Positions 52,670 to 58,017 of a stretch of 64,000 nt of DNA are shown here, in pieces. Position 1 is the first letter of the stretch, and every line of letters starts with the position of its first letter. Both the position numbers and the translations under genes were made by a program. Origin of the DNA: Alphaproteobacteria bacterium (GTDB taxonomy: Bacteria; Pseudomonadota; Alphaproteobacteria; Rhodobacterales; Rhodobacteraceae); assembly GCA_030424865.1 (NCBI GenBank), contig JAUHVR010000001.1:124001-188000 (forward strand), read 5' to 3'. The notes under the pieces were generated by a model, which saw only the letters and a list, made by a program, of their open reading frames with translations, searched no databases and was not told the DNA's origin.

Positions 52670-53176
52670 ATGGCCGAGATCAAAGACCCCGAAAACACCA
52701 TCCTGATGGAGCTGAAGGACGGCACCGTTGTCATCGAACTGCTGGCCGACGTGGCCCCGGGCCACTGCGCGCGCATGAAGGAACTGGCGCGCGCCGGGGC
52801 CTATGACAATGTCGCCTTTCACCGGGTGATCGACGGCTTCATGGCGCAGACCGGCGACGTGGCCAACGGCAACATGGAGAACAACTTCAACCTGCGCATG
52901 GCAGGCACCGGCGGGTCGGACCTGCCGAACCTGAAGGCGGAATTTTCCCGCGTGCCCCATGCCCGCGGCACCCTGGGCGCGGCGCGCAGCCAGAACCCCG
53001 ACAGCGCAAACTCGCAGTTCTTCATCAACTTCAAGGACAATGATTTCCTGAACGGCCAGTACACGGTTTACGGCCAGGTGATCGAAGGCATGGAGCATGT
53101 GGATGCGATCACCCGTGGCGAACCGCCGGCGCAGCCCGACCGCATGATCAGCGTCAAGGTTGCTGCCGATGCCTAA
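52670..53176 (+). CDS. Cytoplasmic cyclophilin-type peptidyl-prolyl isomerase
   Basis: Protein of 168 aa, MAEIKDPENTILMELKDGTVVIELLADVAPGHCARMKELARAGAYDNVAFHRVIDGFMAQTGDV..., with the cyclophilin core FHRVIDGFMAQTGD (catalytic Arg), NSQFFINF and NGQYTVYGQV. AAGGAG precedes the ATG at 52670. There is no signal peptide, so it acts in the cytoplasm. Its stop overlaps the second cyclophilin start by a few bases. Confidence 0.95.
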   Translation: MAEIKDPENTILMELKDGTVVIELLADVAPGHCARMKELARAGAYDNVAFHRVIDGFMAQTGDVANGNMENNFNLRMAGTGGSDLPNLKAEFSRVPHARGTLGAARSQNPDSANSQFFINFKDNDFLNGQYTVYGQVIEGMEHVDAITRGEPPAQPDRMISVKVAADA

Positions 53177-53837
53177 CCGGCTGACGCTGGTTTTCGGGGG
53201 GCTTGCGGCGGTCCTGGTGACCGCCGGGGCCTGGTCGATCCTGCGGCCCGCGCCGCCGGACGAAGTCGCCCCATCCCCCGTCATCGTCGCCGAGGCGCGT
53301 GCGCCGCAGGACTTCACCTATGATCCGACGGCGGACTACGGTCTGCGTCTTGCGATCAGTGGCGAGGGGGCGAATGGCGAGATCGTCATCGATCTGAACG
53401 AGGCCGTGGCCCCGGGCCATGTGCAGCGCATCACCGAACTGGCGGCCGCGCGGTCCTATGACAACGTGGTGTTCCACCGCGTGATCGAGGGCTTTATGGC
53501 CCAGACCGGTGACGTGCAATTCGGCAAGCTTGGCAGTGACATGCGGCAGGCGGGGCGCGGCGGCTCGGAGCATCCTGATCTGCAGGCCGAATTCTCGGAT
53601 GTTGCGTTCGAGCGCGGAGCCGTCGGCATGGCGCGGTCGCAGGATCCCGACAGTGCGAACTCGCAGTTCTTCATCATGTTCGCCCCGGCGCCGCATCTGA
53701 ATGGTCAATACACCGTTGTGGGGCAGGTGACCGAAGGGCTGGAGGTGCTGGATGCCATCAAGCGCGGCGAGGGGCGCAACGGCGCCGTCATCGGCGCGCC
53801 GGATGTGATGACCGAAGTGGACGTCATCCAGAAGTGA
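53169..53837 (+). CDS. Exported or membrane-anchored cyclophilin
   Basis: Protein of 222 aa, MPNRLTLVFGGLAAVLVTAGAWSIL..., with an N-terminal hydrophobic segment (about 6-26) that is either a signal peptide or an anchor, then a cyclophilin domain (about 50-220): FTYDPTADYGLRLAISGEGANGEIVIDLNEAVAPGHVQRI, VVFHRVIEGFMAQTGDVQF, MARSQDPDSANSQFFIMFAP and NGQYTVVGQV. It overlaps the cytoplasmic cyclophilin gene by 8 nt. Its domain is close in sequence to the C-terminal domain of the caspase fusion 1.7 kb downstream. Confidence 0.92.
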   Translation: MPNRLTLVFGGLAAVLVTAGAWSILRPAPPDEVAPSPVIVAEARAPQDFTYDPTADYGLRLAISGEGANGEIVIDLNEAVAPGHVQRITELAAARSYDNVVFHRVIEGFMAQTGDVQFGKLGSDMRQAGRGGSEHPDLQAEFSDVAFERGAVGMARSQDPDSANSQFFIMFAPAPHLNGQYTVVGQVTEGLEVLDAIKRGEGRNGAVIGAPDVMTEVDVIQK

Positions 53838-53840
53838 CGC

Positions 53841-53872
53841 AGACCGTTTCCCAATACGGGGAACGGTCTTTC
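53841..53872 (+). terminator. Terminator of the cyclophilin pair
   Basis: AGACCGTTTCCC pairs with GGGGAACGGTCT (one G-T) over AATAC, followed by TTTCG. The T-run is short. It separates the pair from the convergent small gene. Confidence 0.6.
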
Positions 53873-53885
53873 GCGTGACGGTCGA

Positions 53886-54086
53886 TCAGGCCGACCTTTT
53901 CGAGACAGAGACAAGCGCGTGTGGCTTGCGACCGGTCGCAAGGCCGGACCAAGCCTGCACGAACGCGTTGCGCATGCGGGTCGTGAATGGTTTGCGCTGT
54001 TCGGCGACCTGTCGTTCTGCCTTGCTCGGCGGCGTCAAGTGGTCGGGCTGGTAGCGGGTGATTGCGGTGTCGATCGGGGTCATCAT
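53886..54086 (-). CDS. Small basic hypothetical protein
   Basis: Protein of 66 aa, MMTPIDTAITRYQPDHLTPPSKAERQVAEQRKPFTTRMRNAFVQAWSGLATGRKPHALVSVSKRSA. AAAAGGAG lies eight bases before the start, a strong ribosome site that supports a real gene. It is basic, without signal or membrane segment; FTTRMRNAFVQAWSGL may be an amphipathic helix. It is divergent from the winged-helix/hydrolase gene and shares the direct repeats at 54147-54175. Confidence 0.6.
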   Translation of the reverse strand: MMTPIDTAITRYQPDHLTPPSKAERQVAEQRKPFTTRMRNAFVQAWSGLATGRKPHALVSVSKRSA

Positions 54087-54146
54087 GGCGGTCTCCTTTT
54101 GCTTGAAGACATCCTGACAGCCCGCTGACCCCGGCGCTTGAAGACG

Positions 54147-54175
54147 GTCCTTAGATCGTCCTTATAAGTCGCTTA
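54147..54175 (+). promoter_or_regulatory. Three direct repeats GTCCTTA at 10-11 bp spacing
   Basis: GTCCTTA at 54147-54153, GTCCTTA at 54158-54164, and the variant GTCGCTTA at 54168-54175. Winged helices of the OmpR/PhoB type bind direct repeats spaced by one helical turn. The site lies 60 bases before a gene encoding such a domain, and could be its own operator. Confidence 0.5.
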
Positions 54176-54234
54176 GAGTTCCTGAGGATCGCTAAAGGCT
54201 TGCGGAATTTGCGAATATTGGCAGGCTGAGCATC

Positions 54235-55425
54235 ATGATCCTGCGTTTTGCCGACTGCGAGCTTGATATCGACCGTCAAAGCCTGACCCGCGACGGGCGT
54301 CAGGTTCCGGTCGAACCGCAGGTCTTTGACCTGTTGCGCCTGCTTGCGGGAAATCCCGATCGTCTGGTGACCCGAGACGAGATAGTCGAGGTGGTCTGGG
54401 GCGGGCGGATCGTCTCGGAAGGGGCCATCTCGGCCCGCATCGCCAGCGCACGCAAGGCTGTGGGCGACGATGGAACCGCGCAAAGGGTGATCCGCACCGT
54501 TCAGCGACGCGGTCTGCAGATGGCCGTTCCGGTGACCGAAGATGCACCCTCTGCCGAACCGGGGCCGGCCTCCCCGCAGCCGGTCGCGACGTCGCGCCTG
54601 CGCTATTTCACGGCCCCGACCGGATCGCGTCTGGCCTATCTTGTTCAGGGTGAGGGCACGCCCGTGGTGCGTGTGGATGCTGCGGGATGGAACATCGAGG
54701 GCGAGCAGACCTCGCCCATCTGGCGGGAAACGACGGAATGGCTGTCGGCGCATCACCGTCAGTTGCGGTTCTCGAACATGTCGCTGAGCGAGAAAGAGCC
54801 GGATATCCCCGAGATCTCGTTCGAGATGTTTGTCGCAGACATCGAAGCGGTTGTTGAAACCGCAGGCTTCGATCGGTTCGCGCTGTTGACGGAATCCGGC
54901 GGGGTTCACAGTGCCCTGCGATATGCGGCACGCAACCCCGCCAGGGTCACCCGCATGGTCATTCACGGCGGCTATGTCCACGGGCGGTCCCTGCGCGCGG
55001 GAACGGACAGCGGAGATGATGTCTTTCGCAAGTTGATCGAACAGGGATGGGAGCAGGACACCGCCCAGATCGGGGCGGCCCTGATGCTGCCCTATCTGCC
55101 CGAAGGCCCGTTCGAGGCGATCACCGACGCCGCCCGCGTGTTCCAGATGACAACCTCGCGAGAGGTCGAACTGGCCATGCGCGACATGGTCAACGAGGCC
55201 GACAGCAGCGCGATCCTGCCCCAGGTGACCTGTCCGGTTCTGGTCGTGCACGGGCGCGATGACAACGTGCACCCGGTGTCCGAGGCCCGCAAACTGGTCG
55301 ACGGGCTGCCGGATGCCGAACTGTGGCTCATGGACACCGCGAACCACCTGCCGGTGGCGGGGCATCGCCTGTGGGAAGAATACCAGGCGGGCCTGCTAGA
55401 GTTCCTGGCGCGCGACGCGGACTGA
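54235..55425 (+). CDS. Winged-helix regulator fused to an alpha/beta-hydrolase
   Basis: Protein of 396 aa. Residues 1-98 are an OmpR/PhoB-type DNA-binding winged helix (ILRFADCELDIDRQSLTRDGRQVPVEPQVFDLLRLLAGNPDRLVTRDEIVEVVWGG...AVGDDGTAQRVIRTVQRRGLQM). A Pro/Ala-rich linker (about 102-120) leads to an alpha/beta-hydrolase fold (about 121-396) with a complete apparent triad: Ser221 in LLTESGG, Asp342 in VVHGRDDNVHP and His371 in TANHLPVAG. There is no receiver domain or transmembrane helix. It may sense a small ester or lactone, or use the fold only as a ligand pocket. Direct repeats lie upstream. Confidence 0.88.
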   Translation: MILRFADCELDIDRQSLTRDGRQVPVEPQVFDLLRLLAGNPDRLVTRDEIVEVVWGGRIVSEGAISARIASARKAVGDDGTAQRVIRTVQRRGLQMAVPVTEDAPSAEPGPASPQPVATSRLRYFTAPTGSRLAYLVQGEGTPVVRVDAAGWNIEGEQTSPIWRETTEWLSAHHRQLRFSNMSLSEKEPDIPEISFEMFVADIEAVVETAGFDRFALLTESGGVHSALRYAARNPARVTRMVIHGGYVHGRSLRAGTDSGDDVFRKLIEQGWEQDTAQIGAALMLPYLPEGPFEAITDAARVFQMTTSREVELAMRDMVNEADSSAILPQVTCPVLVVHGRDDNVHPVSEARKLVDGLPDAELWLMDTANHLPVAGHRLWEEYQAGLLEFLARDAD

Positions 55426-55524
55426 TCGGCCCGGCGCACAAGGCCCCTGTTTTCGGCGCGGCCGGTCCAAATCCCTTGCCTTTGACAGCAGACCTTTCCT
55501 AGGCTCGCGCCAAAGGAGACCGCG

Positions 55525-56937
55525 ATGCCCCGATTTCTGACAGTCCTTGCTGCGGCCGCTTTGGCCGCGCTTGCCGCCGCGCCCGCCGCCTGGGCCGCCA
55601 AGAAGGCCCTTGTGATCGGCAATGCGGATTATGCCGAGCTGAGCGACCTCAACAACACGCTGGGTGATGCCCGTGCCTATCGCGACGCCTTTCAGGCGCT
55701 CGATTTCGACGTCAGTTATCACGAGAACCTGGACGAGATCGGCTTTGAGGACGCCATCTCGGACTTCACCCAGGGCCTCGCCCCCGGCGATACGGCGGCG
55801 TTCTTCTACTCGGGCCATGGCTGGTCCGATGGCGGCGTGAACTATCTTGCGCCCATCGATGCCCCCCGCGATGGGTCTTTGCGGCTGATCAAGAAGCGCT
55901 CGGTTGTCTTGAAGAACGGGTTTGACGGCGTCGTTGACGCCATGCGCGCAAGCGGTGCCAGTTTGCGGCTGGCCATCGTCGACGCCTGCCGGGATTATCC
56001 CTTTGACAGTGCCACCCGTTCGGGGGCCCAGACGCGCGGCCTGGCCCGCGTTCAGGCGGACCTGGGCGAATTCGTGATCTTTTCCGCGGGCGAAGGGCAG
56101 GTGGCGTTGGACCGCTTGTCCTCGGACGCGGGATCGACACAACTCTCGGTTTTCAGCCGCCACTTCGTGCCGCTTCTGTCGCAACCGATCTTCCTCGAGG
56201 ATGCGATCAGCGAGGCGCAGGTTCTGACCGCACTTGATGCGCAGGCCGAGGGCTATGTCCAGACGCCCAGCTACTACGATCAGACGCTGGGCAAGACCTG
56301 CCTTGCCGCCGACTGTGGCGAGGGCACGCGCCTCGCGGCCTTGCCGGTCGAAAAGGAACCCGAGCCCGCCGACCCCGTGGTTCAGGACGAGGTCAGCACG
56401 CCCGAGACATTCCAGTTCGACCCCTCCAAGGATTACAGCCTGCAGATCCAGATCGCAGGTGCCGGCGCGAACGGCGAGATCGAGATTGACCTGTTCGAAG
56501 ACGTCGCCCCCGGGCACGCCGAGCGGCTGGCGACACTTGCGGCGCAGGGCGCCTATGATGGCGTGGTCTTTCACCGTGTGATCGAGGGCTTCATGGCCCA
56601 GACCGGGGACGTGCAGTTCGGAAAATCGGGTGCAGAGCCGGGTATGGCGGGGCGGGGCGGGTCCGAATTGCCCGACCTGAAGGCCGAGTTTTCGAACATT
56701 CCCTACGAACGCGGCACCGTCGGCATGGCGCGCGCGCAGGATCCCGACAGCGCGAACTCTCAGTTCTTCATCATGTTCGCGCCCGGCGCCTTTCTGAACG
56801 GCCAGTACACGGTGATCGGCGAGGTGACCAAGGGCATGAAGGTCGTCGATTCGATCAAGAAGGGCGGCGGCAACAATGGCGCGGTCACCGATCCGGACGT
56901 GATGGCGCGCGTGCAGGTGCTTGTTGACGGAACCTGA
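55525..56937 (+). CDS. Secreted caspase-fold (C14) protease fused to a cyclophilin domain
   Basis: Protein of 470 aa. A Sec signal peptide (MPRFLTVLAAAALAALAAAPAAWA, 1-24) is followed by a caspase-like domain (about 25-260): AKKALVIGNADYAELSDLNNTLGDARAYRDAF, catalytic His98 in FFYSGHGWSDGGVNYLAP, and Cys155 in LAIVDACRDYPF. A Pro/Glu linker (about 272-295) joins a cyclophilin domain (about 297-468) with FHRVIEGFMAQTGDVQFGK, MARAQDPDSANSQFFIMF and NGQYTVIGEV. The cyclophilin part closely resembles the exported cyclophilin upstream (the motif ANGEI.IDL is shared). Both modules look active. I know of no described protein with this order. Confidence 0.93.
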   Translation: MPRFLTVLAAAALAALAAAPAAWAAKKALVIGNADYAELSDLNNTLGDARAYRDAFQALDFDVSYHENLDEIGFEDAISDFTQGLAPGDTAAFFYSGHGWSDGGVNYLAPIDAPRDGSLRLIKKRSVVLKNGFDGVVDAMRASGASLRLAIVDACRDYPFDSATRSGAQTRGLARVQADLGEFVIFSAGEGQVALDRLSSDAGSTQLSVFSRHFVPLLSQPIFLEDAISEAQVLTALDAQAEGYVQTPSYYDQTLGKTCLAADCGEGTRLAALPVEKEPEPADPVVQDEVSTPETFQFDPSKDYSLQIQIAGAGANGEIEIDLFEDVAPGHAERLATLAAQGAYDGVVFHRVIEGFMAQTGDVQFGKSGAEPGMAGRGGSELPDLKAEFSNIPYERGTVGMARAQDPDSANSQFFIMFAPGAFLNGQYTVIGEVTKGMKVVDSIKKGGGNNGAVTDPDVMARVQVLVDGT

Positions 56938-57048
56938 GCTTCATCGGCGATCACCCGTTACAAGCGCTCACAACCCCGTGGGGCGGGGTAGCCAGAACGC
57001 CCGTTTCCGCGCACGTTAAAGGCAAAGGCGCAAAGAGGAGTGACGCCC

Positions 57049-58017
57049 ATGTTCCTAAGACCCCTTCTGGCGGCTGCCGTGATGGTCGCCGCAACCGTGG
57101 CGCAGGCCAACCCGAATTCGTGGAAATACGAGTGGCCGAACACCGATTTCACCAATACCACGATCACCAACTGGGCCGAGATCATGTCAGGCGGCCCGCC
57201 CAAGGACGGCATTCCGGCGCTCGATGATCCGCAGTTCATCTGGGTCGACCAAGAGGTGCGGATCGCCGGGAACGAGCCGGTCATCACCGTCGAGATCGAT
57301 GGTGAAACACCACGCGCCTATCCGATCCGCTATCTGACCTGGCATGAAATCGTCAACGACGTGATCGGCGACGTGCCGGTTGCTGTCACCTTCTGTCCCC
57401 TCTGCAACTCGGGCATCACGTTTGACCGGCGCGTGCAGGGGCAGGTGCTCAGTTTCGGCGTCTCGGGCAAGCTGCGCAATTCGGACATGGTGATGTACGA
57501 CCGCGAGACCGAAAGCTGGTGGCAACAGGCCATCGGCCAAGGCATCGTGGGGCTGATGAGCGGTGTGGAACTGACCGCCCTGCCGACCTGGATGGAAAGC
57601 TGGGAGGAGTTCACCACCCGCAATCCCAAGGGCTTGGTCATGGCCGAACCCAGCTACGCCCGCCGCTATGGCGCGAACCCCTACCGGGGCTACGATAGCT
57701 CGCGGCGTCCCTTCCTGTACAACGGCGAGATGCCACCGCATGACATCGATCCGCTGGCCCGCGTGGTGCGCGTTGGCGATGCGGCCTGGCCGTTGGAACG
57801 GTTGCGCAAGGAACAAGTGGTCACGGAAAACGGCATCCAGATCTCCTGGGTCGCAGGTCAGGCCTCGGCGCTCGACACCTCGAAGATCTCCGAAGGGCGT
57901 GACGTCGGTTCGATCCGCGTGCGCGATGCCGCGGGCAAGGATCTGCCCCATGACGTGATGTTCGCCTTTGCCTTTCACGCCTTCTGGCCAGAAGGCGACT
58001 GGATGCTGGGCGGCTAA
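57049..58017 (+). CDS. Secreted DUF3179 protein
   Basis: Protein of 322 aa. MFLRPLLAAAVMVAATVAQANP is a signal peptide; GAGGAG eight bases before the ATG at 57049 supports that start over the GTG at 57040. The domain shows PPKDGIPALDDPQFI, NEPVITVEIDGETPRAYPIRYLTWHEIVND, VAVTFCPLCNSGITFDRRVQGQVLSFGVSGKLRNSDMVMYDRETESWWQQ and VWPEGDW-type C-terminus, the DUF3179 pattern, with a CPLC pair. The function is unknown; the Cys pair may bind metal or heme or form a disulfide. Confidence 0.9.
   Translation: MFLRPLLAAAVMVAATVAQANPNSWKYEWPNTDFTNTTITNWAEIMSGGPPKDGIPALDDPQFIWVDQEVRIAGNEPVITVEIDGETPRAYPIRYLTWHEIVNDVIGDVPVAVTFCPLCNSGITFDRRVQGQVLSFGVSGKLRNSDMVMYDRETESWWQQAIGQGIVGLMSGVELTALPTWMESWEEFTTRNPKGLVMAEPSYARRYGANPYRGYDSSRRPFLYNGEMPPHDIDPLARVVRVGDAAWPLERLRKEQVVTENGIQISWVAGQASALDTSKISEGRDVGSIRVRDAAGKDLPHDVMFAFAFHAFWPEGDWMLGG

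Follow-up and report, generated by a model that had tools for sequence, protein, structure and literature searches.

A caspase-type protease domain fused to an exported-type cyclophilin: origin and possible role of a putative bacterial fusion protein

Introduction

The gene described here lies in a stretch of 64,000 nucleotides (hereafter the window; contig C35, bases 124001-188000) of an alphaproteobacterial genome of 4.77 Mb, and joins in one open frame a caspase domain of the C14 family to a cyclophilin domain. The order of genes at the locus is as follows: a gene that by eye would be pgk, two tandem cyclophilin genes (cyclophilin 1 and ppi2), a winged-helix/hydrolase gene, the fusion gene, and a DUF3179 gene. 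The original prediction, made from the letters of this DNA, had announced three cyclophilin domains in 4.3 kb, one of them fused to a caspase; the open reading frames (ORFs) are as it described them, with three matches to PF00160 and one to PF00656. In a search of the whole genome all three PF00160 domains proved to lie inside the window, within those 4.3 kb, and 20 C14 domains were counted.

Bacterial caspase homologues with varied extra modules are already known. The main text of one survey counts 671 sequences with 71 Pfam domain types, 33 of them seen once, and names WD40, TPR, Sel1, FGE-sulfatase, peptidoglycan-binding and other modules (PMC3501461). A cyclophilin tail was found in no literature searched. 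The function and the substrate choice of these proteins, especially of the exported ones, constitute in our view a largely open field.

The fusion gene and its product

Judging from its sequence, the frame at 55525-56937 is a genuine gene fusion (Table 1). The motif AAGGAG is found six bases 5' of its ATG, the frame has no internal stop, and the guanine-cytosine (GC) content by codon position is continuous through the linker. Both domains score well above their Pfam cut-offs (132.3 bits vs 21.7 for PF00160), and the PF00656 match spans positions 2-230 of the 233 in the profile. These two families are the only ones matched in a scan at E up to 1, which gave neither an Ig nor a death domain. The caspase half carries a p20 caspase domain with a His-Cys dyad, as the definition of orthocaspases (prokaryotic C14B) asks; an Ig-like domain beside p20, by which paracaspases of the MALT1 type are defined, is absent in the same scan. 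The protein would be exported to the periplasm or beyond. Its AlphaFold model has a mean predicted local distance difference test (pLDDT) value of 81.0 and a predicted template modelling (pTM) score of 0.62. Confidence is high in the caspase half, except for a loop near residues 161-170, and lower in the cyclophilin half, because the alignment behind the model comprised four cyclophilin rows.

Table 1. Features of the fusion gene and of the neighbouring genes, with positions in the window
Feature	Position	Strand	Basis
Fused gene (signal peptide, C14 caspase, linker, cyclophilin), 470 aa	55525..56937	+	Single open frame, Pfam
Probable cleavable signal peptide, residues 1-25	55525..55599	+	By eye; helix 3-17 in model
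Caspase (C14) domain, residues 26-257	55600..56295	+	PF00656, 2.5e-22
Catalytic-type His98	55816..55818	+	Invariant, 31 C14 rows
Catalytic-type Cys155, within D153-A-C155	55987..55989	+	Invariant, 31 C14 rows
Pro/Glu-rich flexible linker, residues 267-292	56323..56400	+	pLDDT under 50
Donor-type junction, residues 278-293 (best guess 278-284)	56356..56403	+	Similarity limits in alignment
Cyclophilin domain of the fusion, residues 312-464	56458..56916	+	PF00160, 2.4e-38
Arg351, counterpart of the cyclophilin catalytic Arg	56575..56577	+	Column invariant in 7-row alignment
Cyclophilin 1, 168 aa, cytosolic type, no signal peptide by eye	52670..53176	+	PF00160, 1.2e-41
Cyclophilin 2 (ppi2), 222 aa, exported type	53169..53837	+	PF00160, 6.5e-38
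Winged-helix (Trans_reg_C) and alpha/beta-hydrolase gene	54235..55425	+	PF00486, 1.2e-12; PF00561, 2.2e-8

Catalytic residues and folds

The two residues of the caspase dyad that the original prediction had named, His98 and Cys155, were confirmed. Asp48, Asp153 and Asp196 are likewise invariant among the 31 C14 domains compared, which come from this and related genomes; at position 158 the fusion has Tyr vs Asn in at least 90% of these rows. The nearest solved protein to the caspase half is human MALT1, both by sequence (2.2e-8) and by fold (Z 27.5, 214 residues, root-mean-square deviation 2.2, in a VIA-align comparison that took in model residues 21-263, i.e., the caspase half). The fusion differs from MALT1 in that the Pfam scan detects neither an Ig nor a death domain, and in being bacterial and, by eye, exported. 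By offset from the aligned ranges, MALT1 position 365, which we take to lie in the Arg-binding pocket, falls at D48 of the fusion. The MALT1 alignment, together with the two Asp residues described in the consulted part of PMC6426788 and without a residue map to TbMC2, suggests that D48 and D153 may form a specificity pocket for a basic P1 residue. By analogy with orthocaspases, the protease would be expected to cut after Arg or Lys. The likeness to orthocaspases (PF00656; PMC3501461 and PMC6426788, in the parts consulted) includes the C14 fold, the dyad, the conserved acidic residues, the variable modules and, in some members, an N-terminal helix or signal; the difference is the cyclophilin, a module that the main texts of their surveys do not name.

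The cyclophilin half of the model matches solved cyclophilins with TMt 0.73-0.79 among the matches listed, values that belong to a half of lower confidence with four alignment rows. It has R351, F356, M357, Q359, N411, Q413 and F415. Arg351 is presumably the equivalent of R55 in human cyclophilin A (CypA), and the set Arg, Phe, Gln, Asn, Phe, which we take to be the catalytic-type residues of cyclophilins, is entirely present (R351, F356, Q359, N411, F415). The places that we assume to correspond to the functional Trp and His of human CypA hold Phe423 and Tyr428. Residues of catalytic type are thus retained in both halves.

Rarity of the combination

Whole-genome searches, which covered Pseudomonadota, gave no match spanning both halves, whether in 60 other genomes with E values up to 1e-3 or in 393 genomes at 1e-60, 384 at 1e-66 and 397 at 1e-45. 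These sets overlap; the first two give only the stronger matches, and in the last three at most four candidates per genome were scored at strict thresholds, so that very diverged or reversed-order fusions could be missed. Among plasmids, none of 326 matching records covers 80% of the protein and none of 35 covers 80% of the DNA at 53600-57300. The relatives named in the protein scan belong mainly to Rhodobacteraceae, Roseobacteraceae and Paracoccaceae; in a named-genome scan of 80 out of at least 590 relatives, all 80 matched ranges begin at residue 231 of the query or later. Of 126 exported-type cyclophilin rows, all but that of the fusion belong to ORFs without a match to the caspase query; both queries are matched only by the ORF in the window and by L001, a duplicate record of it.

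No description of a caspase-cyclophilin combination was found in the open-licence literature of PubMed Central (PMC). The words "isomerase" and "cyclophilin" are absent from the main texts of PMC3501461, PMC6426788 and PMC4933709, whose figures and supplements may hold a rare case. A literature search on bacterial cyclophilins brought up a single paper, on a cyanobacterial one, and a search for the residue numbers of the MALT1 pocket brought up none. The original prediction had allowed that the fusion might prove common and already studied; within the searches made, neither a second case nor a description came to light.

Origin of the cyclophilin half

A tandem pair of cyclophilin genes is the usual state, because 122 of 126 cyclophilin loci carry two; three carry one (among them L001, the duplicate record of the fusion), and the window alone carries three. 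The tree of cyclophilin domains that the original prediction had suggested was built with 249 rows. It places cyclophilin 1 in a clade of 121 cytosolic-type rows (Shimodaira-Hasegawa-like approximate likelihood ratio test, SH-aLRT, 99) and the fused domain beside ppi2 and the ppi2 of G001, a sister species whose genome (91% complete) is the only other one of the genus compared (SH-aLRT 90). In a more careful tree, for which 48 exported-type rows out of 126 were taken (the three focus rows, 22 hand-picked near ones and every fourth of the remainder, with ten long-branched rows excluded), the clade of these three domains has a support of 99/92.7. Within it, ppi2 pairs with its G001 counterpart at 100/99 and the fused copy stands outside on a branch of 0.60. 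The bootstrap of this tree was unsettled, with a correlation of 0.969, and in a topology test the arrangement with the fused copy nearest to ppi2 gets an approximately unbiased p value (p-AU) of 0.374, i.e., this alternative is not rejected.

Plain identity is misleading for cyclophilin kinship, since the genus has a long stem: the fused domain is 68% identical to ppi2, 64% to G001 ppi2 and 70-72% to three exported cyclophilins of other genera. The likeness to the upstream cyclophilin that was claimed in the original prediction holds, as the 99/92.7 clade indicates. The motif ANGE-IDL on which it partly leaned is not specific: GEGANG[T/V]-[IV]DL is widespread among the exported cyclophilins of the family, as viewed in every third row. 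What discriminates is a segment directly before that stretch. In most of the exported rows so viewed a stretch that looks by eye like a signal peptide abuts the core directly. An additional segment, F-x-x-D-P-x-x-D-Y, is common to the fused domain, ppi2 and G001 ppi2; the looser form [FY]-x-[FYHL]-x-P-x-x-[DE]-Y occurs in four exported-type rows out of 126, namely these three and a protein of genome G318. Tree and motif thus lend good support to a derivation of the cyclophilin half from the genus's own exported cyclophilin type, as encoded next door. The fused domain resembles exported bacterial cyclophilins such as ppi2 in identity and in the pre-core segment, and differs from the other exported-type rows in its caspase partner. 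The upstream cyclophilin itself is of the exported type, as had been stated; by eye, its N-terminus looks like a membrane anchor instead of a cleaved signal.

In the exported cyclophilin of G318 (L062), which belongs to another genus, the core is preceded by a spacer of Glu-Pro repeats and by F-x-x-x-P-x-x-D-Y, a similar segment. This spacer is possibly a parallel gain.

Origin of the caspase half and the junction

In a tree of 31 C14 rows, the fused caspase domain forms a clade (91/84) with this genome's C16 paralogue, the G001 counterpart of that paralogue and one protein of genome G123. The fusion, the C16 paralogue and its G001 counterpart have in common LAAL-x-x-x-K after the C14 domain. 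This paralogue, which sits on another contig and not adjacent to the fusion, would be the nearest to the caspase half, a conclusion supported less strongly than that on the cyclophilin half. Since relatives of both donors are still in the same genome, the fusion can be traced step by step.

The similarity to the C14 donor type extends into the linker and ends at about residue 277, and that to ppi2 is weak from about residues 280-285 and clear from about 293. Therefore, the join should fall within residues 278-293, and a place inside the Pro/Glu run 278-284 is the most likely.

Age of the fusion

The gene order in G001 is the same on both flanks, with the difference that ppi2 is followed directly by the DUF3179 gene. 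The gap in the aligned DNA is about 0.34 kb long in G001 vs 3.2 kb in the window. The rest of the G001 genome, at its stated completeness, yielded neither the fusion nor any close relative of the winged-helix/hydrolase gene. The best tree places the copying of the cyclophilin earlier than the split of the two species. The synonymous divergence (dS) is 1.44 between the fused cyclophilin and ppi2, and 1.49 between ppi2 and G001 ppi2; both values are near saturation and therefore too weak to date the copy. The original prediction considered a local duplication followed by fusion likely. The fusion is real and the origin of its cyclophilin from the neighbouring type is well supported, and the event is probably not recent. 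A gain before the split with a loss in G001, and a gain afterwards with fast change, both remain compatible with these sequences. A local duplication so recent that it would postdate the separation from G001 is not favoured, given the 100/99 pairing of the two ppi2 copies, and the p-AU value leaves it unrejected.

Tails of the C14 paralogues

Besides the fusion, the genome has 19 C14 proteins, 12 with a further Pfam module above the cut-off (for the most part repeats or binding domains) and seven without. The tails of the 12 are Sel1 in four, PG_binding_1 in five (two of them with a C-type lectin too), SH3_3 in one, LprI in one and, barely (23.9 vs 23.2 bits), PDZ in one; in Pfam scans none of the 19 has a cyclophilin. 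Because the tails of these paralogues are so varied, the cyclophilin is read here as one more exchanged tail.

An array on contig C94 of G001 contains two C14 genes, L034:11616-14351 (-) and L034:4223-6754 (-), separated by two further C14 genes, whose caspase cassettes are 99.7% identical over 1,261 bp. Beyond the shared cassette the DNA similarity stops but for 49 bp, and the two tails resemble each other at 29-32% in some parts. One tail has Sel1 repeats; the other has a PDZ match of 24.5 bits, below the cut-off of 27. If this is not an assembly effect, the pair would represent a caspase cassette recently copied onto an old, different tail.

Other arrangements were noticed in C14 proteins of this and related genomes. 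In the genome of the window itself (G000), contig C31 has four C14 genes in tandem (L021:6031-16880, +), three with Sel1 repeats and one with no Pfam tail. One G001 protein (L036:63-1895, -) carries six WD40 stretches, a tail type absent from the 20 C14 proteins of the window genome. The C14 proteins of G217 and G328, two other genera (L042:868-2439, -, and L053:1426-2997, +), have a C-terminal match to NADase_transloc (5.9e-24 and 8.8e-29, respectively), an F5/8 type C domain.

A possible docking role and its alternatives

The proposal that we favour is the following. An N-terminal cassette from one of the many paralogues of the genus, made up of signal peptide, orthocaspase-type C14 protease and linker, was joined in frame, within that Pro/Glu-rich linker, to a copy of an exported cyclophilin of the genus's own type. 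The cyclophilin would then be an exchangeable tail for substrate recognition: it would dock on envelope or secreted proteins where proline segments are exposed, and the flexible tether would keep the bound protein near the protease, with or without isomerisation. Its role would be akin to that which the Sel1, peptidoglycan-binding, PDZ, SH3 and lectin tails may have in the paralogues, and it is by analogy with these that docking is suggested. We regard the case for this proposal as evenly poised. The original prediction had offered two ideas, that the isomerase unfolds or presents proline-containing substrates or that it controls the protease; the architectures of the paralogues speak more for a recognition tail that can be exchanged, a role that partly coincides with the presentation of substrates. 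Cyclophilin domains have a well-understood X-Pro ligand, and standard inhibitors and mutants exist for them. As the tail is here an enzyme domain with such a ligand, it offers a direct test of the general view that these proteases are guided by their tails.

A design of this kind has a parallel in primates. In the TRIM5-cyclophilin A fusions (TRIMCyp), which arose by retrotransposition, a cyclophilin was likewise made a domain of an effector protein and is the part that recognises the target. TRIMCyp differs in being a eukaryotic ubiquitin ligase with no protease, directed at a virus capsid, and the homology is confined to the cyclophilin domain; it is an analogy of design only. As described in the parts consulted of two reports, cyclophilin joined TRIM5 more than once in primates (PMC2924388, PMC2982814). 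The wider picture in which a captured cyclophilin picks the targets of an exported caspase, and the genus keeps splicing one cassette onto different recognition tails, is conceivable, although we tend to doubt it.

Several observations weigh against the docking proposal. Among the 20 C14 proteins, the cyclophilin is the sole tail that belongs to a family of enzymes, and its active site looks functional, something for which a module that only docks would have no use. The model leaves the relative placement of the two domains unfixed. The fork that defines the nearest caspase is unstarred (91/84), with a branch of 1.03 in a tree with long-branch warnings. The fusion is a single copy in a single genome, with no orthologue against which selection on the joined form could be gauged. 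Finally, since the tails of the L034 pair are distantly alike and the PDZ match is below its cut-off, that pair is better evidence for the copying of a cassette than for a novel type of tail.

The first alternative to be considered is a near-neutral accident, in which a duplicated cyclophilin became stuck to a caspase cassette and is redundant, without joint function. This would agree with the presence of the fusion in one of the two genomes of the genus and in no other genome among those searched, and with the long branches of both halves (0.60 and 1.03). However, the ratio of nonsynonymous to synonymous divergence (dN/dS) is 0.17 for the fused cyclophilin against ppi2, and 0.32 and 0.18 for the caspase half against the L022 and L035 paralogues, respectively, which indicates that both halves have long been conserved, with the reservation that dS across these pairs is near-saturated (1.4-2.7) and that the ratios average the time before and after the fusion. 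The frame, moreover, has no stop and the catalytic-type residues are retained. An accident is for these reasons unlikely, and it deserves to be kept in mind.

The control of the protease that the original prediction mentioned would be exerted in cis, the cyclophilin either folding the exported caspase domain or switching the protease through isomerisation of prolines in the linker or a loop. In favour of such a role, the active-site-type residues of the cyclophilin are kept, and prolines 274, 279, 281, 284, 293 and 300 are in or beside the linker. Against it stand the 19 other C14 proteins of the genome, none of which has a cyclophilin, and the low confidence of the linker in the model, which leaves a docked state without sign. 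We consider this form of regulation rather unlikely.

Self-processing is a quite improbable explanation. According to it, self-cleavage of the linker by the protease, after Arg269 or Lys277, would free a periplasmic cyclophilin, so that the fusion would be a means of delivering two enzymes together. Both basic residues are within the low-confidence linker, and orthocaspases cut after positively charged residues (PMC6426788, in the part consulted). Nevertheless, the two nearest aligned caspase relatives also have Lys at the place of residue 277, so the site is not specific to the fusion, and a stand-alone cyclophilin of the exported type is already encoded 1.7 kb upstream. The remaining explanation, a misassembly or a frame error uniting two genes, which the original prediction had located between residues 260 and 300, is hardly credible and was rejected, as the cyclophilin-type similarity resumes in the same frame as the caspase-type similarity that enters the linker, GC by codon position shows no break, no stop interrupts the frame, the cyclophilin half has a dN/dS of 0.17 against ppi2 (at a dS near saturation), the locus lies deep within a contig of 608,799 bases, and nothing was found in its favour.

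Neighbouring genes

The ORFs listed for the two tandem cyclophilins are slightly longer than those given in Table 1, as they use other start codons. A scan for repeats at the ends of the block found the three cyclophilin copies plus a few short matches; scans for promoters and terminators at the locus were uninformative. The winged-helix/hydrolase gene belongs to the same block absent from G001 as the fusion, and its best match there reaches only 2.2e-5. A relative, 38% identical, begins about 18.5 kb further along the same contig, outside the window.

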